DNA from: a virus
Virus record (IMG/VR): IMGVR_UViG_3300032240_000260
Coordinates: 1-24,904 of that record
Length of the DNA: 24,904 bases
Direction: 5' to 3' (one strand)
The translations under genes were made by a program, and so were the position numbers. The notes under the pieces were generated by a model. It did not search any database and was not told where the DNA came from. It saw only the letters and a list, made by a program, of their open reading frames with translations. Of this stretch, positions 688 to 24,904 are shown piece after piece. Positions within the stretch are counted from its first letter, which is position 1. Every line of letters begins with the position of its first letter.

Positions 688-698
688 TAGGTTAGGAT

Positions 699-703
699 CC
701 TCC
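699..703 (-). promoter_or_regulatory. Ribosome binding site of gp55
   Basis: The minus strand reads CACGGAGGATC here, a near-perfect Shine-Dalgarno core (GGAGG). The spacer to the ATG at 687 is 11 bases, somewhat long, but no better start lies between, and the N-terminal similarity to T4 gp55 favours 687. Confidence 0.6.
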
Positions 704-733
704 GTGTACTTATATAATAGCACATTTTATACG

Positions 734-1832: not shown

Positions 1833-2134
1833 TGGCAACAGTTTATTCTAAAGCTTCTCCTTGGTACTATACACCACAAACTAATCAATACCTTGATGTG
1901 TTAACGATTAGAAAAGTTCCTGCTGAACCAACTGATCCGGAATATGCGATCGAATCGCATTACAAACACAGACCAGATCTAATGGCATTTGATATCTATG
2001 GAAATGCTGCTCTTTGGTGGGTAATAACACAGAGAAATATGGATGTGATTAAAGATCCTATTTTTGATTTTGAACCAGGGGTAGTTATTAGAATACCGCC
2101 TAAAGAAAACATTATAAGATACCTAGGAATTTAA
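1832..2134 (+). CDS. gp53: Baseplate wedge protein gp53
   Basis: This 100-aa protein fits the gp53 family (Phage_gp53), a small baseplate wedge component that in T4 joins the inner baseplate and helps connect neighbouring wedges around the hub. Visible family hallmarks are the opening YYxTPxxNQYLD, the central HYKHRPDLMAFDIYGNA followed by LWWVI, and the end DPIFDFEPGVVIRIP. The second half, with a conserved Gly-Asn-Ala-LWW-I core and a terminal V-I-P-P strand, is the LysM-like part of the family. T4 gp53 is about 196 aa, so this is a short version, as in many marine relatives. The ATG overlaps the previous stop by one base (TAATG), with a G-rich Shine-Dalgarno (GGCGGGGTG) just upstream, so translational coupling is likely. 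Confidence 0.88.
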   Translation: MATVYSKASPWYYTPQTNQYLDVLTIRKVPAEPTDPEYAIESHYKHRPDLMAFDIYGNAALWWVITQRNMDVIKDPIFDFEPGVVIRIPPKENIIRYLGI

Positions 2135-5928: not shown

Positions 5929-6349
5929 CGTAAAAACAGTTGATACTGGGCAGGCCCAGGCTGGAGATTTCAGCCAACAGACTTTTGCTTACAAGGGATT
6001 TAATTCTAAGTCAGTAACTACTGGATTTAAACAGCATGACATTGATCTGATCAAACAAGATCTGTTAAATCATTTCCACATCAAGAAAGGTGAGAAACTG
6101 ATGAATCCTGAATTTGGCACCATCATCTGGGACATGATTTTTGAACCAATGACCCAACAAAATCTACAAATGATACAAGATGATGTTGCGGAAATTATCA
6201 ACAGAGACCCAAGGATTACAGCTAACAATATCGCTGTTGACGGAACAGACTATGGTATAAGAATTGAAGTTGAACTGACTTATAATCCATTGAACATAAC
6301 AGAAAGATTGGCAATTAACTTTGACAAAAACTCTGTACCTAACAAATAA
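5909..6349 (+). CDS. gp25: Baseplate wedge protein gp25 (GPW_gp25 family)
   Basis: At 146 aa this is close to T4 gp25 (132). The family core is clear: IDLIKQDLLNHFHIKKGEK, then NPEFGTIIWDMIFEP, INRDPRI, and a final YGIRIEVELTYNPLNITERL strand pair. In T4-like phages gp25 sits in the inner baseplate, binds gp6 and gp53, and helps start sheath assembly; related proteins form the same wedge core in P2-like phages (gpW) and type VI secretion (TssE). The first 45 residues are polar and less conserved. The gene overlaps the end of the spike gene by 20 bases and has its own strong Shine-Dalgarno. It is followed by a 49-base gap that contains a late promoter, so gp25 may end the first transcriptional segment, although no terminator is visible. 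Confidence 0.92.
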   Translation: MAARIYNVKTVDTGQAQAGDFSQQTFAYKGFNSKSVTTGFKQHDIDLIKQDLLNHFHIKKGEKLMNPEFGTIIWDMIFEPMTQQNLQMIQDDVAEIINRDPRITANNIAVDGTDYGIRIEVELTYNPLNITERLAINFDKNSVPNK

Positions 6350-9300: not shown

Positions 9301-9911
9301 GTCGCAGAATTGATCCTAGCGTTAGCAACATCATTGATATCTATCTAATGACTAGAACATATGATGAAAACTACAGAATGTGGTTAGCAGGCGGTCTAGC
9401 AAAACAACCAGAAGCTCCAACTCCAGAAGCATTACGAGTTGAATTTGCTTCCGGTCTATCGCAGATTAAATCAATTAGCGATGAAGTTGTCTATCATCCT
9501 GTTAGTTATTTTCCATTGTTTGGATCAAAAGCAAGATCAGAATTCCAGGTAACATTTAAAGTTGTTAAGAATCCTTCTAAGCTAGTTAATGACAATGATT
9601 TGAAAGTTAGAATAGTTAATAGTATCACAGCTTTCTTTGCTGTTGAGAATTTTGATTTTGGTGATAAGTTTTACGCTAGTGAGTTACTCACTTATGTGAT
9701 AAAACAAAATTCACCAGACATTAGCAATATGGTTATTGTTCCTAAACAAACAACACAGGCATTTGGTAGTCTTCTAGAGATCCAAGCAAAACCTGATGAA
9801 TTACTAGTCAGTGCTGCTACGGTGGATGATATAGAAATACTAACTAATATTACAGCGGCGGACCTAAAATTGTTAACAACACAAGTAATAACTAGCACGA
9901 GCGTTCTATAA
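6399..9911 (+). CDS. gp6: Baseplate wedge protein gp6, enlarged
   Basis: The N-terminus (MTTTARQNN, then AEDWKRIYQTF, DFENLRRVMIAYLRENY, ALVDLIAFLGQSLAFRIDL and ENFIELATRKESVLRMARML) is the conserved gp6 start. The C-terminal about 160 residues, from VVYHPVSYFPLFGSKARSEF through NSITAFFAVENFDFG and KFYASELLTYVIKQNSPDI, look like the baseplate J-type end. gp6 forms the ring that ties wedges together around the hub and changes shape on contraction. T4 gp6 has 660 aa; this protein has 1170, so the middle carries several hundred extra residues of beta-rich sequence. That part includes an acidic loop at residues 852-863 (DTNDDGVIDNPD) resembling a dockerin/thrombospondin-type calcium loop. The stop overlaps the giant gene's ATG by one base. 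Confidence 0.88.
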   Translation: MTTTARQNNLILAEDWKRIYQTFTNADFTSYDFENLRRVMIAYLRENYAEDFNDYIESSEYIALVDLIAFLGQSLAFRIDLSSRENFIELATRKESVLRMARMLAYNAKRNKAANGLLKFDTVSTTETLYDSNGVNLAKQTIVWNDSTNSNWYQQFITVLNAAMVTNTEFGKSQGTAIVDGITADQYRFNSTNTGLPVFSFTKQVAGRSMRFEILSTSILGADSIYEETPMPGNQLGFLYRQDGKGNASPNSGFFLQFKQGSMTTAEFQIPQPTVNEIVGITTNNINNDDVWLYQLDSNGNESTLWSQVSSLTGNNTVYNSIANGQKNIYSVITKTNDQIDLLFSDGVYGNLPRGAFRAYYRVSNGLRYQISSSDMRGIAIDIPYVNSAGVSHILTVSMSLNYSISNSASSEDVDTIRTNAPAVYYTQNRMITGEDYNLAPLGSSQDILKVKAINRTSSGISRNFDIIDASGKYSNVNVFCDDGLIYRYNSERTFSYTSVNKNILLNYVKETIEPAVANVQTYNFYITNFDKIFLSDVNVKWIKTTSDSTATTGYFGNAFDNFPIKVGTYTASNLKYVEAGSLVKFIPVLSTQAFKNGEIVDYDPLDVDQQRYIWSKAVQVTGDGTNAGKGNLANGLGPIKFSEIIPHGAKPSQVVPRFISNFNTDIETEIVNLSFARETFGLRYDRATRSWKTVTSGNIDLMTDFNLGQAGDTTNKGLDASWILAFVYDGETYTVRLRGTDYIFSSVQQNRFYFDVDHKIYDSKTRKVIKDTISVLAINRSPLGSEKGSLAIANQILAQFAANPNSKLSDILPIVDEKQILKQDIPFSVSDAVRYDDGYQANESIKIAFSDTNDDGVIDNPDAFDEIVGVNSETKYLFFQQSTDEFGAKSLTFIPNMDSKFIVKDKEANASVNDYGHNQLIYFYDQKENYIKRVDLVTRSFILEPSYVAYVGRSDLKFQYVHNSGESRRIDPSVSNIIDIYLMTRTYDENYRMWLAGGLAKQPEAPTPEALRVEFASGLSQIKSISDEVVYHPVSYFPLFGSKARSEFQVTFKVVKNPSKLVNDNDLKVRIVNSITAFFAVENFDFGDKFYASELLTYVIKQNSPDISNMVIVPKQTTQAFGSLLEIQAKPDELLVSAATVDDIEILTNITAADLKLLTTQVITSTSVL

Positions 9912-12900
9912 TGGATAAAAAAGTTTTTAAGCAGAGCGGATTACCTCTACGGAGGACTGTAGAACTTCTACCAGAAATATTCCAGTCGTCAGCGAATGAT
10001 AAATTTTTATCAGCGACACTGGATCCGTTGGTACAGCCAGGTACACTAGATCGCTTGTCTGGATATGTAGGACGATCATATGGTCGTACATATAACAGCA
10101 AAGACATCTATCTCGATGTTAACAAGTCACTTAGACATGCTTATCAGTTAGAACCAGCCGTAACAATTGAAAATAATGGCAAGGTTAAAAAGTTCTACGA
10201 CTACATTGATTTTAAAAATCAATTAAAGTTTTTCAATAATAAAAATGAAAGAGACGATTTAACTACAGCACAGGAAAAATATTCTTGGAACCCTCCTATT
10301 GATTGGGATAAGTTTTCTAATTATAGAGAATACTATTGGGTTCCAAATGGTCCAGACACCGTACAGGTTCTTGGACAATCGCAGACAGTGGTTTCATCTT
10401 ATAAAGTAGGAACTGAAGGCGCTAACGAATGGGTTTTCTTTCCAGACGGTCTGACAAAAAATCCTGCGATTACTCTTTATAGAGGCCAGACATATGAATT
10501 TTATGTTAATGCCCCAGGCGACGGTTTTTGGTTAAGAACCTCTGATGCGGTTAATAATATTAATTTGTTGTTAAACGAGCAACCTAATTACAATAAGGGA
10601 GTTACTAACAACGGTATTGAAGTTGGTAAAGTGACATTTGTAGTTCCTAACGATGCACCTGACCTATTGTATTATCAAAGCGGCACCAACATAAATCGTA
10701 TCGGTTCTTTTAGAATAGCCAATGTTACAGATAACACATACCTAGATGTAGAAAAAGACATCTTAGGCAAGCAATCTTATAAAAGCTCAAATGGTGTCGT
10801 TTTTACTAACGGACTAAAGATTGATTTTGTAGGAAAGACAACGCCAGAAAAATATACATCAGGAGCATGGATAGTTGAAGGTGTAGGCGATTCAATTAAA
10901 CTGATTCAGTTCAGTGATCTAGAACTACCACCAATTTCAAATCCTAATTCAAACATTGTATTCGATGATGCTGGGTTTGATACTGAGCCATTTGACGATG
11001 CTACTTCGTATCCTACACAAAAAGATTATATAACAATCAACAGATCTAGCATAGATAAAAATCCTTGGTCAAGATATAATCGTTGGTTCCATCGATCTGT
11101 TTTAGAGTACGCTTCTGGGTTCAACGGCTCTTATCCTTCATTGCTAGAGGAAAGCAGAGCAAAAAGACCTATCATAGAATTCGCAGCTAACCTACAGTTG
11201 TTTAATCACGGTATTGTGGCAAAGACTAGTGTTGACTTGGTAGATGATTTTACCACTGACGTATTTTCAACAATCGAAGGAAGTGCTGGATACAACGTAG
11301 ATAAAAAACCTTTGTTTGACGGTGCTAGAGTTTTATTCACCGCCGACACAGACAAGTTGGTCAAAAATAAAATCTATGTGGTTAAATTTATTAAAGTACA
11401 AACCAGTACTAACACAGCTAATAAGACACAGATTAGTCTAGTTGAAGCAGACGACAGTATAACACAAGCAGGTGAATGTGTTATCGTTCGATATGGCGAT
11501 GTTAACGCAGGCCGTATGTACCACTATGATGGCGCAGAATGGCACAAGAGTCAAACTAAAACAGCGATCAATCAAGCACCATTATTTGATGTATTTGATG
11601 ATGAGTTAAATTCTTTCTCTTATACTGGTGTGTATAATACTTCAAACTTCGAAGGCACACGTATCTTAGGATACAAAGTAGCATCTTCCGGAAAACCTGA
11701 TTCAGAATTAGGATTTCCGTTAAGTTATCTAAACATTGATAATACAGGAGATATCCTGTTTAGTTTTGATTGGGAAACAGACACATTCAGTTTCCAAGAA
11801 ACTGAAGTCATGACACAAAATGTCAATTTTGGTTATTTCAAAATCAATAAAGATTTAGATTCTTATGGATTACATAATAACTGGGAACTTTTTGATAACA
11901 CGTTTTATCAAGGAGTAATCCAGACAGTTGAAATACCAACTGCTACAAATCAAGCTGAATTCTCTGCGGTCTATTGGGATCAAGTGGTAGAAGAAAAGAT
12001 ATTCTTCTACCTAAACGGTGAGATAATCAAAGACTCATGGACCAGCGAAACTATTATCGCTAGGAAGTTTACTTTTGCGAGAACATTTGCCGCAGGTGAC
12101 GAGCTTACTATAAAGATATACACCAATGCTGACCCAGATCAAGGTTTCTATGAATTTCCATCATCGCTCGAAAGAAATCCATTAAACCAACCTATACCTC
12201 AGTTTACATTAGGCCAAGCAAATGATCATTTAAGATCTATGCTAGACATGACTGATAGTTTTTCAGGAGTGTTTCCTGGTACTAGCAATTTAAGAGATAT
12301 CGTAGGCTATCAAAAACACGGTAAGAGATTTATGAAATCAAGCAGCGTGGCTGCTATGTCTCTTCCAATGCTTTGCGATAGATCAGTTAACATTATTAAA
12401 TCTATTAGATACGCTGGCGACGAGTATGAAAGATTTAAGAGCGATTTTTTACGTCTAGCTGTAGAACTACCGTTTGATCAAAATATTGTAGAATACGTTG
12501 ATCAAATCATAGACAAGATGTCTAAAACAAAATCTGAAAATTCACCATTTAACGATTCAGATATGATCGGTAGTGGTGCTTATAAAAAGATAGAATATGT
12601 AGTAGAAGACGAAGGCATCAAAGTATTTGCTCTGAGCGAAAAATTTGATCTAACTAGCCCTTCGACTAAAGCAGTGTATGTTTATCGCAATAATATTCAG
12701 CTATTAGTTGATGCTGATTATGTATTTGATTCTAACTTTGGTTTTGTAAAATTAACTATTGATTTGACTGAAGGCGATACGATTGAAATTAGAGAATATC
12801 TGTCAAGTTATTACAACTACATTCCGGCTACACCTACTAAGTTTGGTCTTTCTAAGAAATATACTCCTAGAATCTATATAGACAATACCTATATAGATCC

Positions 12901-15900
12901 TACTAAGGTCATAGAAGGGCATGACGGTAGCATCACTATCGCTTTCAATGACTTTAGAGATAACCTAATCCTTGAATTAGAAAAAAGAATTTACAACAAT
13001 ATCAAGTATCAGTATAACGAAGATATTTTAGATATAGACAGCCTTCTTGGAGGTTTATATAATACAGGTGTATTTGATAAAGATCAGCTAGACAGTGTTT
13101 TGAATCAAGAATTTTTGAGATGGCAGTCAGCTACTGGAGTTGATCCTTTTACTAATTTTTATCTAGATAGTGCTAATCCTTTTACATACACTTATACTAA
13201 AGCACTCGATCATGCTAAACAGGCCAAGATGCCTGGGTATTGGAGAGGAATTTATAAGCATTATTACGATACTGATAGGCCACATACATGCCCATGGGAA
13301 ATGCTAGGCTTTAGTGAAAAACCAACTTGGTGGGATGAGGAATACGGGTTAGCGCCGTATACAAATGGAAACCTATTGCTATGGGAAGATTTAAGAGATG
13401 GTGTAATTAGAAAAGGTCCACGTGCCGGAAAACATACTAGATATGCTAGACATGATCTTTTAGATCATATTCCAGTGGATGACGAAGGACAACTATTAAA
13501 TCCTATTAACTCGGCATCAGTTGTTGACTACGCAGTTAATAGAATATCAGATCCATTCGTATTTGGTGATATTGGTCCTGTCGAAACTGCCTGGAGACGC
13601 AGTTCTAGATTTGTATTTTCATTACTAGAAGCTATTGTGCTTTTAAGACCTTTCGAAACTCTATCTTTAAATTTTGATAGACAGAAGGTAAAAAGAAATA
13701 AGATAGGGCAGATTGTATCAACAGATACAAATACTTTTTTAACTTTAGCAGATGTAAATTCTTCTATCTTTAATCCTTCAGTAATACCGGGTGGATTATT
13801 ATCTTACATATTTGATTATCTGAAAGCCAATCTCATTGACTATAATTCAGTAATATCAATCTTCTCAGAAGACAGTTTCTACATTAGAATTTCAAATAGA
13901 ATAGGCGGATTTGTTGATAAGAATCAACAGAAATATCTGTTAGACAGCAAAAATCCAAAGAGCAAAACTTCTGGAGTGTTTATCCCGCCAGAAGATTATA
14001 ATATTTTCTTTAATATTAGTTCACCTACTAGAACAATCAGCTACTCGGGCGTTATAATAGAAAAAACAGATAACGGATTTAAAATATCTGGTTATGATAA
14101 TTTAAATTCTTATTTTTCATATTTTGAACCAGTTAAGCTAGTAAGTGACCCTGTTCTGTCAGTAGGCGGAGTAAGTGAAGTTTATTCTGAGTGGCATTCT
14201 GATCAGTTCTATGGATCGGGATTATTAGTAAAATATAATGAGAAATTTTATAGGGCAACTTCGTCGCATACTAGTACAGATAATTTTGAAAGCAGTAAAT
14301 GGGTATTAGTACAGCAAGTTCCATTAGTAGGCGCAGTTGAAGCACAAAAGAGAACATCTTTTAACTCTTATCAATCGATAAAATTACCATACGGTACAGT
14401 CTATGATAACATCCAGGCTGTAGTTGATTTCTTATTAGGATATGGAGAATATCTAAAATCTCTAGGCGTAAATTTTGATTCTTATAATAAAGATTTACAA
14501 GTACCTAATGATTGGGAAACAAGTTGTAAAGAATTCATGTTCTGGACAACACATAACTGGGCAATTGGTGCTATTATTTCCCTAAGTCCGGCCGCATCGG
14601 CTGTTAAGATAGATGTAGTTGGAGAAGTGGCAGATAATCTAATAGACAGTTTCTATGAATATTCTGTATTGCGTAGCGACGGCACCAAGATACCTCCTAA
14701 GCAGATTCAAGTTTACAGAACAAATAATCAATTTGTTTTAACACCGTTAGACGCAACAGAAGGAATATACTTTGCTAATATTCATTACGTGGTTAAAGAA
14801 CATGTGGTCGTGTTTAACGATCGAACAGTATTCAATGATGTTATCTACGACAAATCTACAGGATATAGACAAGAAAGAATTAAAGTCATTGGATTTAGGA
14901 CGACAGATTGGGATGGTGACTACACTAGCCCCGGATTTATCTATGATGATGTTAATATATCTCCATGGCAACAGTTTACAGATTACCGATTAGGCGATAT
15001 TGTACAATACAGACAATTTAACTATGTTAGCATGTCCTTCCAGAAAGGTACAAGTTCATTTGATCCTACACAATGGAGACAGCTGGATACTAATCCAACG
15101 TCTGGACTTATATCTAACTTTGATTACAAGATCAATCAAATTGAAGATTACTTTGAATTAGATTATGTTGGTATCAACAATGATCAGAAAAAATTAGCAA
15201 GACATACTATTGGTTATCAAGAAAGAGATTATCTACAAGATATTGCCGAAGACGAAGTAACTCAATTTAAACTCTATCAAGGGTTTATTAGAGAAAAAGG
15301 AACACTTAACTCTATAACTAAAATCTTTGATAAGATAGCTACAACTACAGATGATGCTATTGTATTAAAAGAAGAATGGGCATTCTTGTCAGGATCACTG
15401 GGCGGGATTAATCAGTATGACGAATTAGAAATTTCTATAAAGAAAGAAAATCTAAGATTAAATCCTCAACCTTTGCTTTTAGATAATACAGGAATCATAC
15501 CTGACAACTACCCTAACTTCTTAATAGCAGCTGATACTGATTACAAGATTGGAAATAAGAATATTAAATTTCCTACAAAATATTATTCAGCTAAAGATGC
15601 GGCAGCAGGCTATGTTTATACAGAAGATGTTGATTTTACAGTTGCTAATCTTAACGAACTGTTTTCTATGGATATCGCTAAATTCAAAGAAGGTACAACA
15701 GTTTGGACTACATTTAGAACAAAAGGCTGGGATGTTTTAAGATACAAGGTTACTAATATCACTATTGGTGCTGTAGCGTTAGTTGATACAGGGTCAGTAT
15801 CATTAGTAACCAATGTTGTACATAATTTTAAAGTCGGCGATGTTATTGGTCTTACTAACATAAAGTACCTAACGGGTTTTTATCAAATCGCAGCAGTGGC

Positions 15901-18900
15901 TCCAAAGACTATTATTATCGCTATCGCTGGATACAAATCAGAACCAGAGATAGATCAAAGTTCTTTCTGTAGAATTGGCATATTTGAAACAGCAAGAATC
16001 GCTGATTATCAATCACTGGTTGACAGCAAATACGCATTGTTACCTGTTGGATCTAGACTATGGTTAGATGACAACGGTGACAGTCGTTGGGAAGTTATAC
16101 AAAGACAAAAACAATACGAAGTTACTCCTATTTCAGAATACGGTATTGCGTTCCCAACAGCAACAGGTTCTTCAGTATTGTACCTAGCCAAGAGAAATGA
16201 AACTATTGTAGGTAACCCAGGCGGGGTAGTTACAGTAGGAGATGCTTCTAGAGAATCAGCGGTTATTGTATATTCTCAGGGCTCAACTGGATTAATACCT
16301 TTACAGATACTTGTTCCTACAACAGGATTACAAAGCACCTTCCTTGGATCATATGCGTCGGTAATGGCCAGTAGCGAAGACGGTAGATGGCTGATGGTAG
16401 GGTCACCTACAGTATCTCGTATTCCTAGTAACTATAGAGAATCTTTTAATCCTTCTGCTACATATCAACAAGGTGACACAGTTATCTATGCTGGTAAACT
16501 TTGGAAAGCTAACAGATCTATTATAGGAGATGGCAGCTCAATTGACCTAGCATCAGACGACTGGACACCAGCAACAAACCATTTAGCTAATCCTTTGGGC
16601 AAAGCAATCTTTGATATCAACCAAGGATATAGACAACAAGGTGCTGTTGATATCTTTGAATACAACCAAGGCCAATACAATTATATAGAAACTATTATCA
16701 GTCCTCGTCCAGCAGATGGCGAGTTGTTTGGTACTGCTATCTCAATAGGAAAACAAACAGGTATAGAAGGAACCAGCGGTGACGTAACACTAACAGTTAC
16801 TGAAGTTGATATCACTGGCGGTATTGTAGCAGTATCAGCAGATGGGTCTAGCGGATTAACTGATGCTGTATTTGAAAATATCAGCGGTACAGACGTTAGT
16901 GAGACTGGTGCTAATGCTACATTTGATGTGGTGAAAGCAGTCAACGGATATACTGTTACTGTTAGAACAGGTGGTCAACGTTATGCTGTTGGCGATCGAC
17001 TAAAAATAGTAGGTAGCAGACTAGGCGGCACAACTCCAGCTAATGATTTGATAATAACAGTTGCGGCGGTTAACTCTTCGGGCGAAATACTTGGTTCAGA
17101 AACTTATAATAACATTACTGGTATTGAATCAAGACTAGTTACTGAACAAGCAGTATTCCAGATTTCAAAACTTAGAGACACATATAATACCATAACATTG
17201 ACTAGTCCTGGATACGGATATATTCCAAGAAGCGTTGTTAGCTACGGCGGGAGATATTATGCCTGTATCAGAGATACACAAATAGATAGAGGCCTATGGT
17301 CAGAAACTGCGGTTTATTTTATTGGCGATGTTGTACAATATCAATATAATCCAATACTACCTCCTGCGTACTTTGAAGTAATATACGACGGTGCGGAACA
17401 CACAGGTGTGGTAGGAATTGCTCCACCAGATTCTACATTCTGGAAAACTGCTCCTCCTATACTGCCAACTAACACTGATTATTGGGAAGGTGTCACAGGC
17501 ACTGACTTTGCGTTAGTTGCTAAACCTTGGGTAGAAAAAACTTCAACGAATGTCAGAATCAAGTATACGGCTGGAACGATTATTACTATTCCAGGTACAT
17601 CTGTAGGTGGTGTATCGCCAGACAACGACATCACGATACGAGTTAACGCAGTAGTACAGCCAATCACAAACCCGCAGTCAGGACCCGAGTACAACCCTGC
17701 TATTACTAGCTTCTCATTCTTTGGAAAAGCTATTCCTGGCGTTTCTTGGGTTGGCACAGCATCATCTGGTGAAACATTGTTCAACGATGTTACAGGTTTA
17801 GATATTAGTGAACCAGGTCAGGGTGCTATTTTTAATCTAGTTAGATCTAAAGGCAGTTATACCGCTACAGTTAACGTTAAGGGATCTAGATTCAATGTTG
17901 GAGACCAAATTAAAATACTTGGCACAGCTATTGGCGGGGTCAAAGAAGCTTATTATATGACTGTAGGTGCTCCTGGATCTCTAGACGAGTCAGGAAGATC
18001 ATACATTTACAAATTTGACGGTATCAGATGGTCATTCCTAGAAGATGAAAATTTTGTTGGAATATACAGCAACGACAAATACTACACCGCTGGATCAGTA
18101 GTATGGTACATTAATTACTATTACAAAGCATTGCGTGATGTAGCACCAGGCAATAATTATCCTTCAGTGGCATCGGCATTGTGGTCTGCTACCACTACGA
18201 TCAATCAAGCTATGCTACCATCTAAGGCAGCCCTAGAAGATGCTAGCGACTCGTCATTAGACAGCACATTGCTAACAGGACAGATTTCGACTACAGTTGA
18301 AAATCTAAAATCAGGATCGATGTATGGTTTCTCATCACAGATGAGCAGCGATGCCGCTACACTGGTGATAGGTGCTCCTAAGACAGATAGTGCTAACTTT
18401 GCCTATTATAGAGGTGTTTGGAAATCATATCAGTATTACTCTAAAGGGGATACTGTAAAGAGAAACAACTCTTACTGGACAATGTTATCTAATACAAATA
18501 AAGGAACAGTACCAGGATCAGATGCTGCGGTTTGGCACTACGAAGATACTGGAAGCCAAACAGCATATACTCCTCGTTCGGGATCAATATTCATTTACAA
18601 GAAAGATCCTACAGGCACTTTCCAACCATCTCAAATTATCAATGCTGAAAATATTAACTCTTTCTTAACTGACAGTACGGATATTAATCCGGGAGACGAG
18701 TTTGGAACTGCTGTTCTGTTATCAAGAGATTCTAAAAAATTATTTGTATCAGCTCCGTCAGCAGACTATGCGGGATTAGATCAAGGAGCAGTTTATGTCT
18801 TTAATCTAATTAACGGAACTTATAAGTTTGTACAAAAATTAGACAGTCAACAAAGAGATCCTAACGAAAGATTTGGTTCACGTTTAAGCCTTTCACCAGA

Positions 18901-21900
18901 CGGCACAACATTGTCAATTGCGGCAGAAGGAGCAGAAACATATCGTACTACCACATTCGATAATAATGCTACACAGTTTGATAGATATGTTTCTAAATTT
19001 AAAGATTCTGTAGGAAAAACAGGTAAGGTCTACGTGTTTAATGAATACGCTGATCAGTATGTGTTAGGAGAGATCTTTGACGAAGGCCTAAATGCTAATG
19101 AAGATTTTGGTAGATCTTTAGCATCATCAAACGATACAATCATCGTTGGTTCTCCGAAATATCTATCTACTGATCCTGCGTTTAAAGAAACTAGAATTGG
19201 TCGTATACAGAAATTTACTAAAGGTAAAGATGTTAAATCTTGGACTGTTGTTAGATCACAAGTAGATCAAATCAATATCGATAGACTGAAAAATCTATCA
19301 ATATTCAACGGAAAGACTAATACCAAACTAGCAGATATTGATATTATTGATCCTTATAAAGGAAAAATTTTATCTATAGTAGATCAAGATATTGATCTCA
19401 AGACAACATATGATCCTGCGATATATTCTGTTGGTACAGCCAACAGCACAGTTGATGAAGGGCAAGCATGGCGTTCAGAGAAGATTGGAAAAATTTGGTG
19501 GGATCTAGGCACAGTAAAATACACTGACTATGAACAAAGCGACATCTTCTTTAGAAACGGAAACTGGGGTAACACAGCCTACGGTAGTTCTATTGATGTC
19601 TACGAATGGGTAGAAACTACTCTACTACCTAGCGAATGGGCAAAATATTCTGGAACATCTACTGCGTTTGAATTAGGAATTTCTGGAGTTCCGTTATACC
19701 CAGACGATTCTAATTATTCTCTAGAAACACATATAGATAAAAACACAGGTCAAGTATCTGTGATCAAGTATTACTATTGGGTTAAGAATAAAGAAACACT
19801 GCCTGCTAATTCATTAAAAACTAACAGCGCAGCGGCGATAGCTATCTATATCGCAAATCCATTAGCAGCTGGTATTCCTTTTGCTGCTATTACTGATGTT
19901 GACAAATTATCTCTATACAATTTCTTAGGAGAAATTGATTCAGATGAATTCCTATTAAACATTCAGTTCTATAATGTAGATAAGGGAATCAATCTAATCC
20001 ATACCGAGTATGCGTTGTTGTCTGAAGATACAACTGAGCTTCCTCCTACAGACTTAGAAAATAAATGGATAGACAGTTTGATCGGTGAAGACATATTAGG
20101 AAGAGATGTTCCTGATAGAAACTTGCCTATTAAATCAAAATACGGAATATCAACAAGACCAAGACAAAGCATGTTTGTTGATAGAAATACTGCTGTTAAG
20201 ATCACTGTGGATTACATCAACGAAAAATTAATGTCAGCTCCGTTAGCTGATTCTATTGATTATGTAAATCTTAACAAAATAGATCCTAAGCCTTCGGCAA
20301 TTAAGAAACTATATGATCTAGAAAAATATGTTGTGGAAGAATTAGACCTGATTCCGATGTCTAAGATAACTCCTGCTGTACTAACAGCAAACATAATCAA
20401 CGGTAAAATAAACACAGTTGACATTGTAGAAAGCGGATACGGTTACAGATCATCGCCATTGATTAAAATAAACGGCGACGGTACTGGTGCTGAGCTATCA
20501 GCAGTCATTAACAAATTTGGTCAAGTAACCAGCGTGACTGTTGTGAATCCTGGTAAAAAATATACAGAAGCAAGAATAGAAGTAAGACCGTTCTCTGTAT
20601 TAATTGACAGCGATTCTAATTCAAACGGTTACTGGGCAATTTACAGCTGGGATTCGAAAGCGCAAGTATTCTACAAATCAGCAACACAAGCCTATGACAC
20701 AACCAAATATTGGACTAAAGTTGATTGGTGGTTAACTGGTTATTCTTCATTATCTAGAATAACAGCAGCTATTCCTGGAATATATGCTGAAGGTGATGTT
20801 GATGTACAACTTAATGGTCTATTGAGATTAGAAAACTACGGCAGTGGTGGCTGGGCAGTATTGGAAAAAGTAAACAGCGCAGATGCTACGATACTAGGAC
20901 AATACAGATTAGTAGGCCGTCAGGAAGGTACCATACAAATTATTGACAAGTTCTATAATAGCTCAGTTGAATCTACTGGTTACGATCTAACACAAAGTTA
21001 TGACAGTAACAGATATGATACTTCTTTTGCTATCGAATTTAGAAATATATTAAGAGCCGTAAAAGAAAACATTTTTATCAATGAATTAGACACAGAGTGG
21101 AACAAATTATTCTTTGTAAATGTACACTATGTATTCTCTGAGCAGTTGTATGTTGACTGGGCGTTTAAGACTAGCTTCTTAAATGCTACACATAATGTCG
21201 GGTATCTGTCTCATAGATTAAACTACAAGAGCGATAATCTTCCTAGCTATCAGAAATATATCGAAGAAGTTAAGCCTTATAGAACAAAGATAAGAAAATA
21301 CACAAGTAGATATCTAGATATAGATAATGCGAGAACATCTGTAGCTGATTTTGATTTACCTCCGGCTTTTGATATTGGCAGACAAGCTATATTGCCAGTT
21401 ACAGAAAACAATCCTCTAGTAGATACATATCCATGGAGAGCATGGAGAGATAATCACGGTTATTCGATTGTAGAACTTAAATTGATCAGCGGAGGACAGG
21501 ATTACACCAGCGTTCCTAAGGTATTAATCGAAGGCGGTGGCGGATCAGGAGCCAAAGCTAGAGCATTTGTTTCTAGTGGCAAGGTAACACATGTTATACT
21601 AGAGAATGGTGGTAAGAATTATACTTCTGCGCCAACAGTAACCTTAGTAGGCGGTGTAGGTACAAAAGTACAGAACGCAGGCCGTATTGTTGCTGTAATA
21701 GGAAACAGCAAAGCAAGAACATTTAATATGTCTATGAAATTTGATAGATATTCAAAAGTTCCTACATTCAAGAACTTTGGAGATAACTTTTCTGAGCTTG
21801 AAACGTTTGATAATCTATCTGGTAGACAAAATACATTTACATTGAAGTATCCATCGACATTGGATAAGTCAAAAATCTCTGTTTTCTTAAAGCATAAAGG

Positions 21901-24826
21901 TTCATCAGCAGGTACCGATGGAGCTAAACTACTCAATAGCGAATATACTGTATCATTAACAACAACAAATATTTCAGGCGCTAATATTTTAACAGGTAAG
22001 TTGAAATTAAATGCTTCACCTCCTGCTGGTGCTACGGTCACAGTAAAATATGAAAAGAACGATGCTATATTAGACAGCCTTAATCGCATTGACAAATATT
22101 ATACACCTGTGGCAGGCATGTTAGGAGTTGAAAAAAATGTTGATTCATCTACTAACGAAATTACCAGCGATTATTCACAGTTAGTAACTGGAATAGACTT
22201 TGGTGGTGTTATTGTACAAGGAGCTATGTTTGACGTAGGCGCTGGTTGGGATGCCTTCCCCTGGGGTGTTGAAGGTTGGGACAACGCAGAAGACCTAACT
22301 AAAGACATCTATATAGCTGCTGACGGTGTGTCGCATGATTTCATATTGCCAGTTGCTCCAGCACAAGGACAGGAAATCACAGTTTACATCAGACGAATTG
22401 GCGAAACTAAATCTACTAGAATAGATGACCCTTACTACAGTGTCTATGACAACTCAACTAGACAGCCAAACGGGTTAACTAAAGCACCTAATGGTGTTGT
22501 TATGAATACATTTGTAGGAGATGGATCTACACAGATCATACACGTTCCTAGTACATTGACTATTAACAGAGACGATACTTTGATATTCAGACCTCTAGAC
22601 AGCGATGGCAGTATCGCATTGTCTGGCAGGAATCTAATAGATACAGAAATATCAGGCGGTTCATTGTTAGGCAATTCAGCTTACTCTACTGCTACTGGTA
22701 AGACAGCTTCTGAGATAGTATTAGATGGTCAGAGATTTATCAGCCCAGAACAAGTACCTGCTCCAGAAGAAAATGTTCCAGGACAAGTACTAGAATCGTT
22801 AAGTATCAAGGTATTCCATACAGATAGATTTGGCTCTCCTGCTATTCTTTCTAGAATCTATACAGCAGACGGACTTGTCGCAGAATTTGATATTGGACAG
22901 GCTGTTATTGATAGACAATCTGTAACAGTATTTGTTGATAAAATTAAACAAGAAAACGGCATACAATATACCGTTGACTTTGTGACTAACAAGGTGAGAT
23001 TTATTAACACTGTAGTACCTCTAGACTCAATAGTTGAGGTATTTTCAATCTCAGTTGGCGGCGTAGAAATATTAGATTACAAAGAATTTGTCGGTGACGG
23101 TGCTACCCGTTATTACCTAACTGGAGCAGCTTATCCAGAAACAGGATCAATATTTGCCACAGTAGACGGTCAACCAATATTGGTCGGGTTTGTTAACAGT
23201 AATGGCAGAGTTAATGGTATTGACAAGACGCTTGTAGAATTTGGTAATCCTCCAGATATTGGAAAAAACATTTCTATTGTTGTGTTGTCAGCAGAATCAG
23301 GAACAACATCACCTGTAGTTAAAGTTAACACACAAAATATAACTGTAACAGATACTAACATTAAGACTTATGCTATCGAAGCGTTTACAACATTAGAAGG
23401 ATCTGCCGTAAGCAACATATTGGTTGAGTTGAATGGTACGTTGTTAAAGACAGTTGACACGGTCATGACATATGACGGTGAACCAGAGATAACCATTGGC
23501 ATAGACCCAGTAAAAGATCCAGGCGATATTATCGAAGCTAGAATCAAAGTCTATATCAACAACGTAGAAAAGAAATTTGGCATTGATTATATATTTGATA
23601 CAGCAACAAACGTTGTTACTATCCTTGCTGATTTTACTGAAAATGACATTGTGCGTGTAGAAGATTACACAGACAGTTTATACACTATCGAAAATAACTC
23701 AGTAGTATTAAATCCTGCGATTAACTTAGTGGCAGGTGACGAAATAACCATTACTTGGTTTGATCAATACACACAATTGGATCTAATTAAAGATAGATTT
23801 GAAGGCGGAGAAGTCAGCTACGTGCTACAAAGACCATCTATTTTAGGATTGTCTTATGTGTGGACGTACTTAAATGGTGAGCGTTTAACACCTGATATTG
23901 ATTATTATCTATCAGCTGATGGCGCAGCAATTTATTTGAATACTTCAATGATCACAACTACGACTGCTGATGTTATTGAGATAATTTCATTCTCAGACCA
24001 AGTGAGAAAAGATCCTATATCTTTTGAAATATTTAAAGATGTATTAAACAGAAACTTCTACCATAGATACCGAGATGTATCTGTAACACTAGCTGCTGAT
24101 TTAAAATACTCAGATGACGTTGCCACTCTAAGTAGTACAGCTGACCTGCCTACTCCTAGTTTCGACCAACCAGGAATAGTGACTATTAACGGTGAAAAGA
24201 TACAGTATCTAAACAAAGATGATGCTACAAACACTATTACTGGATTGAGAAGAGGATTGTTTGGAACAGCTATCGGAGAGCTATACTTAACACACACTAC
24301 AGTTGTTGACACTGGTTATATGGAAACAATTCCGTATAGAGAATCACAGAATAAAGAAGATTTCTTTAGCACTGGACATCCAGATGATTCTACAGTAGGT
24401 GCTGCCCAAACTATTGGACCGTTGTCTTTTGTGCCAACACAATCAGCTACTGACGGTACAGGTTATAGAAAAGATTGGTTAAGAACTACAATTCCTGGCA
24501 CATTTGGTCCTTGCGACGATGTAGAAGTGTTTGTTGGCGGTAGAAGATTAAGCAAAGACCCTATCGTACACTATGACGCTACTGTAGGGTCCTATAGCCC
24601 TGCTGGAGACGTCAAAACAGAAGCAGAGTTCAGTGTTGACGGATCGACTCCTTACATCAGATTAACAACAACGGTACCGGCAGGACAGCGCATTACAGTA
24701 GTGAGAAGAACCGGTCAAATTTGGTATGCTAACGGCTTAGGAACAGCATCTAACGGTGTCACATTAAGCAGTAATTCAACACCGATAGCCAAGTTCCTAC
24801 AAAATGCTACTACAAAATTGCCATAA
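9911..24826 (+). CDS. Giant modular baseplate/fibre-like structural protein (4971 aa)
   Basis: One uninterrupted frame of 4971 codons begins in the gp6 stop (TAATG) with no clear Shine-Dalgarno, so translation is probably coupled to gp6. The N-terminus (LPEIFQSSANDKFLSATLDP, then VQPGTLDRLSGYVGR and YSWNPPIDWDKFSNYREYYW) is a start I recall from long structural proteins of marine myophages. Domains in order: cupredoxin-like (about 180-275); Trp-rich conserved region (about 1067-1260, with CPWEMLGFSEKPTWWDEEYG); carbohydrate-binding-like modules near 1424, 1683, 2178, 2461, 2719 and 2834; a helical segment near 1737-1857 (ARHTIGYQERDYL, YQGFIREKGTLNSI); FG-GAP propeller (about 2144-3107); Gly-Tyr repeats near 3494 and 3855; YIEEVKPYRTKIRKY near 3770; a GWDAFPWGVEGWD motif near 4113; C-terminal beta-sandwich repeats. 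Position matches T4 gp7/gp8, but I see no clear match to either. A peripheral baseplate or receptor-contact role is inference. Confidence 0.75.
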   Translation: MDKKVFKQSGLPLRRTVELLPEIFQSSANDKFLSATLDPLVQPGTLDRLSGYVGRSYGRTYNSKDIYLDVNKSLRHAYQLEPAVTIENNGKVKKFYDYIDFKNQLKFFNNKNERDDLTTAQEKYSWNPPIDWDKFSNYREYYWVPNGPDTVQVLGQSQTVVSSYKVGTEGANEWVFFPDGLTKNPAITLYRGQTYEFYVNAPGDGFWLRTSDAVNNINLLLNEQPNYNKGVTNNGIEVGKVTFVVPNDAPDLLYYQSGTNINRIGSFRIANVTDNTYLDVEKDILGKQSYKSSNGVVFTNGLKIDFVGKTTPEKYTSGAWIVEGVGDSIKLIQFSDLELPPISNPNSNIVFDDAGFDTEPFDDATSYPTQKDYITINRSSIDKNPWSRYNRWFHRSVLEYASGFNGSYPSLLEESRAKRPIIEFAANLQLFNHGIVAKTSVDLVDDFTTDVFSTIEGSAGYNVDKKPLFDGARVLFTADTDKLVKNKIYVVKFIKVQTSTNTANKTQISLVEADDSITQAGECVIVRYGDVNAGRMYHYDGAEWHKSQTKTAINQAPLFDVFDDELNSFSYTGVYNTSNFEGTRILGYKVASSGKPDSELGFPLSYLNIDNTGDILFSFDWETDTFSFQETEVMTQNVNFGYFKINKDLDSYGLHNNWELFDNTFYQGVIQTVEIPTATNQAEFSAVYWDQVVEEKIFFYLNGEIIKDSWTSETIIARKFTFARTFAAGDELTIKIYTNADPDQGFYEFPSSLERNPLNQPIPQFTLGQANDHLRSMLDMTDSFSGVFPGTSNLRDIVGYQKHGKRFMKSSSVAAMSLPMLCDRSVNIIKSIRYAGDEYERFKSDFLRLAVELPFDQNIVEYVDQIIDKMSKTKSENSPFNDSDMIGSGAYKKIEYVVEDEGIKVFALSEKFDLTSPSTKAVYVYRNNIQLLVDADYVFDSNFGFVKLTIDLTEGDTIEIREYLSSYYNYIPATPTKFGLSKKYTPRIYIDNTYIDPTKVIEGHDGSITIAFNDFRDNLILELEKRIYNNIKYQYNEDILDIDSLLGGLYNTGVFDKDQLDSVLNQEFLRWQSATGVDPFTNFYLDSANPFTYTYTKALDHAKQAKMPGYWRGIYKHYYDTDRPHTCPWEMLGFSEKPTWWDEEYGLAPYTNGNLLLWEDLRDGVIRKGPRAGKHTRYARHDLLDHIPVDDEGQLLNPINSASVVDYAVNRISDPFVFGDIGPVETAWRRSSRFVFSLLEAIVLLRPFETLSLNFDRQKVKRNKIGQIVSTDTNTFLTLADVNSSIFNPSVIPGGLLSYIFDYLKANLIDYNSVISIFSEDSFYIRISNRIGGFVDKNQQKYLLDSKNPKSKTSGVFIPPEDYNIFFNISSPTRTISYSGVIIEKTDNGFKISGYDNLNSYFSYFEPVKLVSDPVLSVGGVSEVYSEWHSDQFYGSGLLVKYNEKFYRATSSHTSTDNFESSKWVLVQQVPLVGAVEAQKRTSFNSYQSIKLPYGTVYDNIQAVVDFLLGYGEYLKSLGVNFDSYNKDLQVPNDWETSCKEFMFWTTHNWAIGAIISLSPAASAVKIDVVGEVADNLIDSFYEYSVLRSDGTKIPPKQIQVYRTNNQFVLTPLDATEGIYFANIHYVVKEHVVVFNDRTVFNDVIYDKSTGYRQERIKVIGFRTTDWDGDYTSPGFIYDDVNISPWQQFTDYRLGDIVQYRQFNYVSMSFQKGTSSFDPTQWRQLDTNPTSGLISNFDYKINQIEDYFELDYVGINNDQKKLARHTIGYQERDYLQDIAEDEVTQFKLYQGFIREKGTLNSITKIFDKIATTTDDAIVLKEEWAFLSGSLGGINQYDELEISIKKENLRLNPQPLLLDNTGIIPDNYPNFLIAADTDYKIGNKNIKFPTKYYSAKDAAAGYVYTEDVDFTVANLNELFSMDIAKFKEGTTVWTTFRTKGWDVLRYKVTNITIGAVALVDTGSVSLVTNVVHNFKVGDVIGLTNIKYLTGFYQIAAVAPKTIIIAIAGYKSEPEIDQSSFCRIGIFETARIADYQSLVDSKYALLPVGSRLWLDDNGDSRWEVIQRQKQYEVTPISEYGIAFPTATGSSVLYLAKRNETIVGNPGGVVTVGDASRESAVIVYSQGSTGLIPLQILVPTTGLQSTFLGSYASVMASSEDGRWLMVGSPTVSRIPSNYRESFNPSATYQQGDTVIYAGKLWKANRSIIGDGSSIDLASDDWTPATNHLANPLGKAIFDINQGYRQQGAVDIFEYNQGQYNYIETIISPRPADGELFGTAISIGKQTGIEGTSGDVTLTVTEVDITGGIVAVSADGSSGLTDAVFENISGTDVSETGANATFDVVKAVNGYTVTVRTGGQRYAVGDRLKIVGSRLGGTTPANDLIITVAAVNSSGEILGSETYNNITGIESRLVTEQAVFQISKLRDTYNTITLTSPGYGYIPRSVVSYGGRYYACIRDTQIDRGLWSETAVYFIGDVVQYQYNPILPPAYFEVIYDGAEHTGVVGIAPPDSTFWKTAPPILPTNTDYWEGVTGTDFALVAKPWVEKTSTNVRIKYTAGTIITIPGTSVGGVSPDNDITIRVNAVVQPITNPQSGPEYNPAITSFSFFGKAIPGVSWVGTASSGETLFNDVTGLDISEPGQGAIFNLVRSKGSYTATVNVKGSRFNVGDQIKILGTAIGGVKEAYYMTVGAPGSLDESGRSYIYKFDGIRWSFLEDENFVGIYSNDKYYTAGSVVWYINYYYKALRDVAPGNNYPSVASALWSATTTINQAMLPSKAALEDASDSSLDSTLLTGQISTTVENLKSGSMYGFSSQMSSDAATLVIGAPKTDSANFAYYRGVWKSYQYYSKGDTVKRNNSYWTMLSNTNKGTVPGSDAAVWHYEDTGSQTAYTPRSGSIFIYKKDPTGTFQPSQIINAENINSFLTDSTDINPGDEFGTAVLLSRDSKKLFVSAPSADYAGLDQGAVYVFNLINGTYKFVQKLDSQQRDPNERFGSRLSLSPDGTTLSIAAEGAETYRTTTFDNNATQFDRYVSKFKDSVGKTGKVYVFNEYADQYVLGEIFDEGLNANEDFGRSLASSNDTIIVGSPKYLSTDPAFKETRIGRIQKFTKGKDVKSWTVVRSQVDQINIDRLKNLSIFNGKTNTKLADIDIIDPYKGKILSIVDQDIDLKTTYDPAIYSVGTANSTVDEGQAWRSEKIGKIWWDLGTVKYTDYEQSDIFFRNGNWGNTAYGSSIDVYEWVETTLLPSEWAKYSGTSTAFELGISGVPLYPDDSNYSLETHIDKNTGQVSVIKYYYWVKNKETLPANSLKTNSAAAIAIYIANPLAAGIPFAAITDVDKLSLYNFLGEIDSDEFLLNIQFYNVDKGINLIHTEYALLSEDTTELPPTDLENKWIDSLIGEDILGRDVPDRNLPIKSKYGISTRPRQSMFVDRNTAVKITVDYINEKLMSAPLADSIDYVNLNKIDPKPSAIKKLYDLEKYVVEELDLIPMSKITPAVLTANIINGKINTVDIVESGYGYRSSPLIKINGDGTGAELSAVINKFGQVTSVTVVNPGKKYTEARIEVRPFSVLIDSDSNSNGYWAIYSWDSKAQVFYKSATQAYDTTKYWTKVDWWLTGYSSLSRITAAIPGIYAEGDVDVQLNGLLRLENYGSGGWAVLEKVNSADATILGQYRLVGRQEGTIQIIDKFYNSSVESTGYDLTQSYDSNRYDTSFAIEFRNILRAVKENIFINELDTEWNKLFFVNVHYVFSEQLYVDWAFKTSFLNATHNVGYLSHRLNYKSDNLPSYQKYIEEVKPYRTKIRKYTSRYLDIDNARTSVADFDLPPAFDIGRQAILPVTENNPLVDTYPWRAWRDNHGYSIVELKLISGGQDYTSVPKVLIEGGGGSGAKARAFVSSGKVTHVILENGGKNYTSAPTVTLVGGVGTKVQNAGRIVAVIGNSKARTFNMSMKFDRYSKVPTFKNFGDNFSELETFDNLSGRQNTFTLKYPSTLDKSKISVFLKHKGSSAGTDGAKLLNSEYTVSLTTTNISGANILTGKLKLNASPPAGATVTVKYEKNDAILDSLNRIDKYYTPVAGMLGVEKNVDSSTNEITSDYSQLVTGIDFGGVIVQGAMFDVGAGWDAFPWGVEGWDNAEDLTKDIYIAADGVSHDFILPVAPAQGQEITVYIRRIGETKSTRIDDPYYSVYDNSTRQPNGLTKAPNGVVMNTFVGDGSTQIIHVPSTLTINRDDTLIFRPLDSDGSIALSGRNLIDTEISGGSLLGNSAYSTATGKTASEIVLDGQRFISPEQVPAPEENVPGQVLESLSIKVFHTDRFGSPAILSRIYTADGLVAEFDIGQAVIDRQSVTVFVDKIKQENGIQYTVDFVTNKVRFINTVVPLDSIVEVFSISVGGVEILDYKEFVGDGATRYYLTGAAYPETGSIFATVDGQPILVGFVNSNGRVNGIDKTLVEFGNPPDIGKNISIVVLSAESGTTSPVVKVNTQNITVTDTNIKTYAIEAFTTLEGSAVSNILVELNGTLLKTVDTVMTYDGEPEITIGIDPVKDPGDIIEARIKVYINNVEKKFGIDYIFDTATNVVTILADFTENDIVRVEDYTDSLYTIENNSVVLNPAINLVAGDEITITWFDQYTQLDLIKDRFEGGEVSYVLQRPSILGLSYVWTYLNGERLTPDIDYYLSADGAAIYLNTSMITTTTADVIEIISFSDQVRKDPISFEIFKDVLNRNFYHRYRDVSVTLAADLKYSDDVATLSSTADLPTPSFDQPGIVTINGEKIQYLNKDDATNTITGLRRGLFGTAIGELYLTHTTVVDTGYMETIPYRESQNKEDFFSTGHPDDSTVGAAQTIGPLSFVPTQSATDGTGYRKDWLRTTIPGTFGPCDDVEVFVGGRRLSKDPIVHYDATVGSYSPAGDVKTEAEFSVDGSTPYIRLTTTVPAGQRITVVRRTGQIWYANGLGTASNGVTLSSNSTPIAKFLQNATTKLP
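10440..10735 (+). other. Cupredoxin-like domain in the giant protein, copper ligands absent
   Basis: Residues about 180-275 read AITLYRGQTYEFYVNAPGDG, then GVTNNGIEVGKVTFVVPNDA and LLYYQSGTNINRIGSFRI. This follows the cupredoxin-like pattern found in marine phage structural proteins: rGqtY.F, G-H-F, Gvt.nG...G.v.f.VP.dAp..LyY.C..H..M.G. The usual ligand positions are changed: GD-G-F replaces GH-F, and YYQS-GTN-INRI replaces YYxC-xxH-xxM. The fold is therefore likely kept and copper binding likely lost. Confidence 0.6.
14181..14312 (+). other. Carbohydrate-binding-like module 1 of the giant protein
   Basis: Residues about 1424-1468 (YSEWHSDQFYGSGLLVKYNE, FYRATSSH, ESSKWVLV) fit the small Trp-rich CBM5/12-like pattern: W-x-Y-xx-G-x-V-x-Y-x-x-x-x-Y-x-A...W. 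Such modules bind polysaccharides in chitinases and occur in phage tail proteins. Sugar binding here is inference. Confidence 0.45.
14956..15092 (+). other. Carbohydrate-binding-like module 2 of the giant protein
   Basis: Residues about 1683-1727 (SPWQQFTDYRLGDIVQYRQF, NYVSMSFQKG, DPTQWRQLD) show the clear W...Y..GD.V.Y...Y......G......W pattern of CBM5/12-like modules, followed directly by the conserved helical segment at 15121-15480. Confidence 0.55.
16444..16575 (+). other. Carbohydrate-binding-like module 3, inserted in propeller blade A
   Basis: Residues about 2178-2222 (FNPSATYQQGDTVIYAGKLW, KANRSI, SDDWTPA) fit the CBM5/12-like pattern well. The module lies between the VGSP strand and the GAVDIFEY strand of blade A. 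Confidence 0.6.
16789..17945 (+). repeat. Three GT-GG modules inserted in propeller blade B
   Basis: Two fuller copies and one half copy share the pattern F-x-N-[IV]-[ST]-G-x-D-[VI]-S-E-x-G-x-x-A-x-F-(D/N)-V-x-(K/R), then Y-T-x-T-V and G-x-R-[YF]-x-V-G-D-x-[IL]-K-I-[LV]-G-[ST]-x-[IL]-G-G. Copy 1 is 16789-17110 (VGDRLKIVGSRLGGTTPAND). Copy 2 is a half repeat at 17557-17670 (ITIPGTSVGGVSPDNDITIR). Copy 3 is 17707-17945 (VGDQIKILGTAIGGVK). Copy 3 runs straight into the VGAP strand of blade B. Modules of this style are frequent in marine phage fibre-like proteins; the function is unknown to me. Confidence 0.6.
17290..17462 (+). other. Carbohydrate-binding-like module 4, within the blade B insertion
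   Basis: Residues about 2461-2518 (LWSETAVYFIGDVVQYQYN, then YFEVIYDG, and TFWKTAPP) match the CBM5/12-like pattern with a longer loop. Just before it, VVSYGGRYYACIRD looks like the second half of another such module, so this may be a one-and-a-half copy. Confidence 0.5.
18064..18202 (+). other. Carbohydrate-binding-like module 5, between blades B and C
   Basis: Residues about 2719-2764 (YSNDKYYTAGSVVWYINYYY, KALRDVAPGN, SALWSATT) fit the module pattern. The module lies between the end of blade B and the start of blade C. Confidence 0.55.
18409..18550 (+). other. Carbohydrate-binding-like module 6, inserted in propeller blade C
   Basis: Residues about 2834-2880 (GVWKSYQYYSKGDTVKRNNS, YWTMLSNTNKG, AAVWHYED) fit the module pattern. 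It sits between the VIGAP strand and the GSIFIYK strand of blade C, the same place as module 3 in blade A. Confidence 0.55.
20388..20598 (+). repeat. Gly-Tyr repeat pair, copy 1
   Basis: The encoded stretch reads INGKINTVDIVESGYGYRSS, then PLIKINGDGTGAELSAVI, then GQVTSVTVVNPGKKY. Two half repeats share the plan G-x-[IV]-x-x-[VI]-x-[IV]-x-x-x-G-x-x-Y, with a P-x-[IV]-x-I-x-G strand between. A second pair lies at 21475. Confidence 0.65.
21475..21700 (+). repeat. Gly-Tyr repeat pair, copy 2
   Basis: This copy reads IVELKLISGGQDYTSVPKVL, then GGGGSGAKARAFVSSGKVTH and VILENGGKNYTSAPTVTLVG. It has the same plan as the pair at 20388, with a clearer central GGGGSGA turn. It is followed by a spacer and then the conserved ARTFNMSMKFDRY stretch. 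Confidence 0.65.
22922..24720 (+). repeat. C-terminal beta-sandwich repeats of the giant protein
   Basis: At least four repeats share the plan V-x-V-[FY]-[VIL]-[DNG]-[GKN]-x-x-x-x-x-x-x-D-Y-x-[VF]-(loop)-[IV]-x-[FIL] ... G/D-D-x-[IV]-x-V. Starts: 22922 (VTVFVDKIKQENGIQYTVDF), 23549 (VYINNVEKKFGIDYIFD), 23858 (VWTYLNGERLTPDIDYYL) and 24526 (VEVFVGGRRLSKDPIVHYD). Related single copies occur earlier near 12003 (FYLNGEIIKDSW) and 12675 (VYVYRNNIQLLVDADYVFD). Such repeats are common in the shafts of phage fibres and long tail proteins. Confidence 0.55.
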
Positions 24827-24832: not shown

Positions 24833-24860
24833 CAATATGAGAACAGAAGAGCCCAATAAT

Positions 24861-24904
24861 ATGTCACAAAATACAGAAGAAAACAAGCAAGATACCCGAG
24901 CTCC
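24861..24904 (+). CDS. Start of a downstream gene, cut by window edge, unknown product
   Basis: From ATG 24861 the frame is open to the edge and reads MSQNTEENKQDTRAP, a polar start with no recognisable family. An in-frame ATG at 24837 would add eight residues (MRTEEPNN). I prefer 24861 because a start at 24837 lies only 4 bases after the late-promoter-like site, at or before its expected transcription start. The other two promoters lie 20 and 22 bases before their genes, which suits 24861 (28 bases) better. An AGAAGAG at 24845-24851 could serve as a weak Shine-Dalgarno. Function cannot be judged from 14 codons. Confidence 0.5.
   Translation, partial: MSQNTEENKQDTRA

Follow-up and report, generated by a model that had tools for sequence, protein, structure and literature searches.

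The contig analysed here encodes a 4971-aa protein, hereafter the giant, that is probably the gp7-position baseplate-wedge subunit of a Rak2/Atu_ph07-like jumbo myophage. It belongs, as a large member, to a jumbo-phage family that is known and widespread but poorly understood; the family itself is not new.

Reading frame, gene order and relatives

Our window was the complete 24,904-bp virus contig; gene content beyond it was judged from relatives. Its genes run in the order gp55-like late sigma factor (minus strand), two virion proteins, gp53-like, gp5-like, gp25, gp6 and giant, the last three being:

5909..6349, + strand: gp25 (GPW_gp25), 146 aa
6399..9911, + strand: gp6 (baseplate wedge), 1170 aa; phrog_10646 E 1.3e-280, phrog_219 E 8.7e-21
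9911..24826, + strand: giant baseplate/virion structural protein, 4971 aa; phrog_10938 family, E 2.3e-303

The late sigma factor gene (window 1–723, minus strand) stands divergently beside the baseplate operon, and PA5oct, GAP32 and 121Q are arranged alike. T4 genes run gp6-gp7-gp8, and the giant, in the arrangement gp25-gp6-giant, occupies the T4 gp7 slot, which is also the slot after gp6/TssF taken by TssG-type subunits; this arrangement and membership of a virion protein family partly bear out the initial annotation, which had placed the giant where T4 has gp7 and gp8. At the junction with gp6 (TATAATGG), the gp6 stop codon TAA (9909–9911) and the ATG of the giant (9911–9913) share one base (TAATG).

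From that ATG the frame is stop-free throughout, with a calculated product mass of 552.8 kDa and a pI of 4.8, in agreement with the 14.9-kb, 4971-codon open frame and product of about 0.5 MDa first described. Random sequence with the same base composition would stay open over this length with a probability of ~10^-162. Divergence by codon position was compared with two relatives (L010 and L141) in those tenths of the giant with enough comparable codons. In every such tenth, third positions hold most substitutions (against L010, rates at positions 1/2/3 were 0.24/0.12/0.51 for the first tenth of the gene and 0.35/0.28/0.59 for the final one), so the whole length is coding; judged from these substitution patterns, the giant is under coding constraint along its comparable length. 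The thought that a single metagenomic contig might present an assembly artefact or a fortuitous multi-gene fusion is refuted by relatives and retains practically no probability, given that more than 25 further loci, as well as complete genomes of isolates, have full-length closed frames of 3.8–4.9 kaa.

The giant matches the PHROGs profile phrog_10938, ‘virion structural protein’, in four stretches (E 2.3e-303). A tblastn search with residues 1–1,500 returned 99 phage records, mostly from Rak2-like and related jumbo myophages, a minority of which match through a mobile domain only. Isolate members of phrog_10938 (121Q gp582, GAP32 gp230, PA5oct gp355, Atu_ph07 gp180, phAPEC6 gp245 and CBB gp236) are homologous to the giant over two conserved cores, A and B (~23–32% identity by BLASTP), share its slot after gp6 and in several cases are virion proteins by mass spectrometry. 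Among complete genomes, the homologue lies directly 3′ of gp6, in the order gp25-gp6-giant, in Atu_ph07 (4449 aa), Phosso (4555 aa), PA5oct (3857 aa), GAP32 (3341 aa), 121Q (3323 aa), phAPEC6 (3323 aa) and CBB (3340 aa). Compared with the 3323–4555 aa of isolate homologues, the 4971 aa of the giant are explained by variable inserts at residues ~1900–3110 and in the C-terminal part.

One scan of IMG/VR gave 106 relatives and a second at least 589 confirmed stretches, the closed frames of homologues being mostly 3.8–4.9 kaa; IMG/VR searches with the PA5oct protein found no matches and those with the Atu_ph07 protein found its own genome only. The frame of one relative (L070) is interrupted around 12402, through sequencing error or in reality. 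In all 136 loci from IMG/VR whose upstream sequence extends for 3 kb or more, gp6 is directly upstream of the giant, ending within −60 to +200 nt of its start, although some of these contigs overlap or duplicate one another. The one-base overlap, taken in the initial annotation as a sign of synthesis in step with gp6, is present here and identically in Atu_ph07 but is not general: relatives have gaps of about −15 to +165 nt, and in Salicola phage SCTP-2 the 3807-aa homologue lies ~92 kb from gp6. This failure to adjoin gp6 in SCTP-2 counts against the gp7-subunit reading. In the same genome, the gp6 match covers two annotated ORFs and a 3096-aa second gene precedes the giant.

Presence in particles is known for homologues of the giant. 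In phAPEC6 virions, gp245 (381.88 kDa) was identified from 17 unique peptides at 7.6% coverage, and it adjoins gp244, the baseplate wedge protein gp6 (PMC7247149). The virion mass spectrometry data given for CBB record 21 peptides and 7.72% coverage for CBB_236, which adjoins gp6 (CBB_237) (PMC5259590), and the Atu_ph07 virion cluster, given as CDS 170–215, spans gp180 (PMC6102473). PA5oct gp355 is tagged ESI-MS/MS in its database record. Coverage of these homologues is low, and full-length presence in the virion does not follow from it.

Domain architecture and likeness to gp7

The giant can be divided into conserved and variable parts, within which we mark one inserted domain and two short motifs:

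9911..15610, + strand: conserved core A, ~residues 1–1900, common to all jumbo-phage homologues compared
15611..19240, + strand: variable insert, ~residues 1900–3110, with FG-GAP repeats (possible beta-propeller) and CBM5/12 chitin-binding-like modules
19205..21400, + strand: conserved core B, ~residues 3100–3830, common to all jumbo-phage homologues compared
21401..24823, + strand: variable C-terminal part, ~residues 3830–4971, from alignment with isolates
10373..10735, + strand: cupredoxin-like (YHYH-type) domain, ~residues 155–275, from Foldseek/BFVD on the model
9965..10041, + strand: N-terminal LP-helix motif, ~residues 19–44, LLPEIFQSSANDKFLSATLDPLVQPG, from by-eye comparison with cyanophage, phiM7 and T4 gp7
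15119..15345, + strand: helical KGT element, ~residues 1737–1811, NFDYKINQIEDYF ... FKLYQGFIREKGTLNSITKIFDKI, suggestive only

The extra length of the giant consists of inserted domains of cupredoxin-like, chitin-binding-like, FG-GAP-like and tail beta types. Missing from 121Q and GAP32 and mostly missing from PA5oct, the cupredoxin-like domain contains zero His, Cys and Met and, lacking these ligands, has no copper site; since stretches ~31–45% identical to it occur in cyanophage tail-fibre proteins, we regard it as a mobile tail domain. Near the other end, residues ~4708–4785 match residues 51–127 of cyanophage gp7 (hhalign 88.8%, E 2.5e-6, in a single comparison). This beta-domain is mobile and variously placed in giant tail proteins, and it is also found in a 2173-aa frame of two relatives (G001 and G002).

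An AF2 model of residues 1–1190 (mean pLDDT 81.8) matched the equivalent part of the Atu_ph07 structural protein in BFVD (TM 0.70), together with several ‘YHYH domain’ phage proteins, and its significant Foldseek matches in the PDB came almost all from the cupredoxin-like insert. The model of residues 1191–2110 (pLDDT 72) gave no meaningful match in the PDB, and no sequence relative with a solved structure was found in the PDB copy searched. We discarded the baseplate chain 9f4b_FA (607 aa; TM below 0.1) retrieved by the first model, the endosialidase and E1-enzyme fragments (TM ~0.1) retrieved by the second, and, from PDB sequence searches (phmmer and profile), weak chitin-binding-domain matches in core A and one chance-level match each for the giant and for residues 1–1190.

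In the AF2 model, the LP-helix region is helical at residues 16–19, 27–36 and 38–41, and the LP motif may be the equivalent of the gp7 core-bundle helix. At about residue 1796, the motif FYxGFIxxKGTxxAxxKxF can be lined up by eye with the KGI/KGT segment that gp7 has in T4, phiM7 and cyanophages, which suggests the KGT element as the counterpart of that segment. Both motifs keep a conserved position across the giants and are visible in cyanophage, phiM7 and T4 gp7, with weak statistics: the KGT match reached hhalign 22% and E 9.5e-4 in one comparison, as the best of 49 slices, and 3.7% with a larger alignment; when the gp7 segment was searched as an HMM against the giants, it scored E ~1–10, repeatedly at the same place. 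The two motifs are ~90 residues apart in phiM7, ~190 in cyanophages (with an inserted beta-domain) and ~1,750 in the giants. The difference in spacing from phiM7 counts against the gp7-subunit reading, but a gp7 split by insertion between the motifs is a coherent reading of the giant.

Profiles of T4 gp7 (phrog_964 and PF21427/PF21428/PF21456) did not match the giant, T4 gp7 itself, compared by sequence and by profile, showed no significant match over any longer stretch, and a Pfam search found no match to TssG, P2 gpI or Mu gp48. In hhalign, the full length and slices set against T4 and cyanophage gp7 and gp8–gp12 returned only the KGT motif and the mobile C-terminal beta-domain. The initial annotation would have sought likeness to T4 gp7, gp8, gp9, gp10 and gp11 in such slices; for these proteins and gp12 it did not extend beyond the short KGT motif, and Foldseek against the PDB with models of residues 1–2110, in which the KGT region has low pLDDT, recovered neither a gp7 nor a gp8 fold. 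The gp7 reading of the giant is based on its position and on the two short motifs; profile and fold comparisons do not establish homology to T4 gp7.

These motifs, together with a conserved core of ~2,600 residues and the location immediately 3′ of gp6, in the gp7/TssG/gpI slot, in every genome inspected except SCTP-2, tell against seeing the giant as a baseplate-attached fibre or adhesin (of the rim or whisker kind) in a genome whose real gp7 would be another gene, diverged beyond recognition. That account draws on the adhesin-like inserts (FG-GAP, CBM5/12 and cupredoxin-like domains), on the lack of linkage to gp6 in SCTP-2 and on the fast evolution of gp7, which the Pfam model Gp7_5th misses even in cyanophages; we judge it distinctly unlikely.

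Searches for separate wedge genes, and the fibre genes

Searches for separate wedge proteins in the complete genomes of six jumbo phages and in several large relatives gave no match over the relevant parts for gp8 (PF09215, phrog_438 and PF25691) and none for gp7 (phrog_964, PF21427 and a cyanophage/phiM7 profile) or gp11 (PF08677); the complete relatives offer no family match to set against the initial annotation, for which a clear separate gp7 or gp8 would have been contrary evidence. The silence of phrog_438 outside a Gly-rich repeat has some weight because this profile recognises gp8 in cyanophages as well as in T4. Models for gp7 have lower sensitivity: PF21427 does not find the gp7 of cyanophages, and the profile made from cyanophage and phiM7 gp7 finds T4 gp7 but not the giants’ own KGT. 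For gp9/10, one short N-domain match passed the cut-off, inside a 2516-aa frame of G001, and two fell below it.

Within the giant itself, gp8 profiles (PF09215 and phrog_977/438) matched only in the repeat region of phrog_438 (~profile positions 185–320), with a best hhalign E of 0.08. Short PHROG stretches labelled ‘head closure Hc2’, ‘portal’ and ‘baseplate wedge (phrog_438)’ were read as driven by repeats or domains and not as homology, the phrog_438 match falling on the mobile Gly-rich repeat and the portal matches on a CBM-like segment at ~2174–2222; an NCBIfam CRISPR RAMP protein match was far below cut-off.

Replacement of gp8 by the giant is possible. A wider proposal, that a fusion-type giant replaces gp7 and gp8, and possibly gp9 or gp11, and forms most of the wedge periphery, seems unlikely to us. 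Complete relatives have no gp8 or gp11 match, though phrog_438 picks up gp8 of T4 and of cyanophages alike; the table of T4-core homologues published for CBB appears to name no gp7 or gp8 (PMC5259590); and the giant is far longer than gp7 and gp8 combined. However, hhalign of every slice against gp8, gp9, gp10, gp11 and gp12 produced nothing convincing, and absence of gp8 does not imply fusion because there are simple contractile tails without it.

Fibre genes also weigh against fusion, being separate and downstream in relatives, where the giant is followed by a phrog_11259 protein, then by at least four fibre-like genes sharing an N-terminal motif, and then by other genes. One fibre-like gene carries a Collar domain and also matches Gp10_C below threshold, and in PA5oct a gp10-like fibre protein lies three genes beyond the giant. 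One giant therefore does not replace the fibre system; these genes, which close relatives have right after the giant, contradict the fibre part of the suggestion that it could stand in for a number of wedge and fibre proteins together.

In the window, positions 24838–24904 may hold the beginning of the following gene, truncated where the contig stops; the corresponding slot in relatives is that of the phrog_11259 protein (~200–220 aa), whose PA5oct homologue is tagged ESI-MS/MS. Three relatives (L170, L172 and L174) share a recurring cluster after the giant and fibre genes, including one protein with a sub-threshold Radical_SAM match and others that look glycosyltransferase-like by eye, and Atu_ph07 and Phosso annotate radical SAM genes there. 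This post-fibre cluster possibly modifies virion or host-surface components.

Proposed wedge role and known systems

The T4 (gp6)2-gp7 and (TssF)2-TssG complexes are equivalent heterotrimers (PMC6300606), and a contractile tail with gp6 is therefore expected to need a gp7-like partner. If the giant is that wedge subunit, its N-terminal helix and helical KGT element would pack with two copies of gp6 in a (gp6)2-(giant)1 core, as in T4 gp7 and TssG. The other ~4,700 residues, comprising conserved scaffold and lineage-specific inserts, would radiate outwards to form a bulky baseplate rim, may hold the separately encoded fibres and would probably touch host-surface glycans. A bolder form of the split-gp7 reading, to which we give little credence, has the core helix and KGT bracket a ~1.7-kaa insertion and the giant build the whole wedge periphery alone, combining the functions of gp7, gp8 and connector; were it true, a single 0.55-MDa chain per wedge would organise jumbo-phage baseplates.

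Among known systems, T4 gp7 resembles the giant in its position after gp6 and, by inspection, in LP-like and KGI motifs. It differs in being ~five times shorter (1032 aa), in giving no significant profile or fold match and in the location of its core helix, near residue 650 in T4 and at the N-terminus in the giant. TssG, P2 gpI and Mu gp48, each a single gp7-type chain with two gp6/TssF chains, would be the expected functional analogues.

The phrog_10938 family and giant gp7-slot proteins of cyanophages are already on record. Annotated gp7 after gp6 reaches 5195 aa in P-SSM2 and 4067 aa in Bellamy (both ‘baseplate wedge initiator’), and the same slot holds proteins of 4878 aa in Sf-CH8 (baseplate wedge subunit) and, unnamed, of 4458 aa in MED4-213 and 3048 aa in S-PM2. 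The giant gp7 proteins of cyanophages such as P-SSM2 and Bellamy share with the giant the gp25-gp6-gp7 slot, size class, mobile domains and, by eye, the N-terminal LP helix and KGT motif, whereas no overall sequence homology was found. A separate gp8 is retained in Bellamy and S-PM2. Giant gp7-slot proteins, which are very large virion proteins, appear general in at least two large T4-related assemblages, the cyanophages and the Rak2/Atu_ph07-like jumbo phages.
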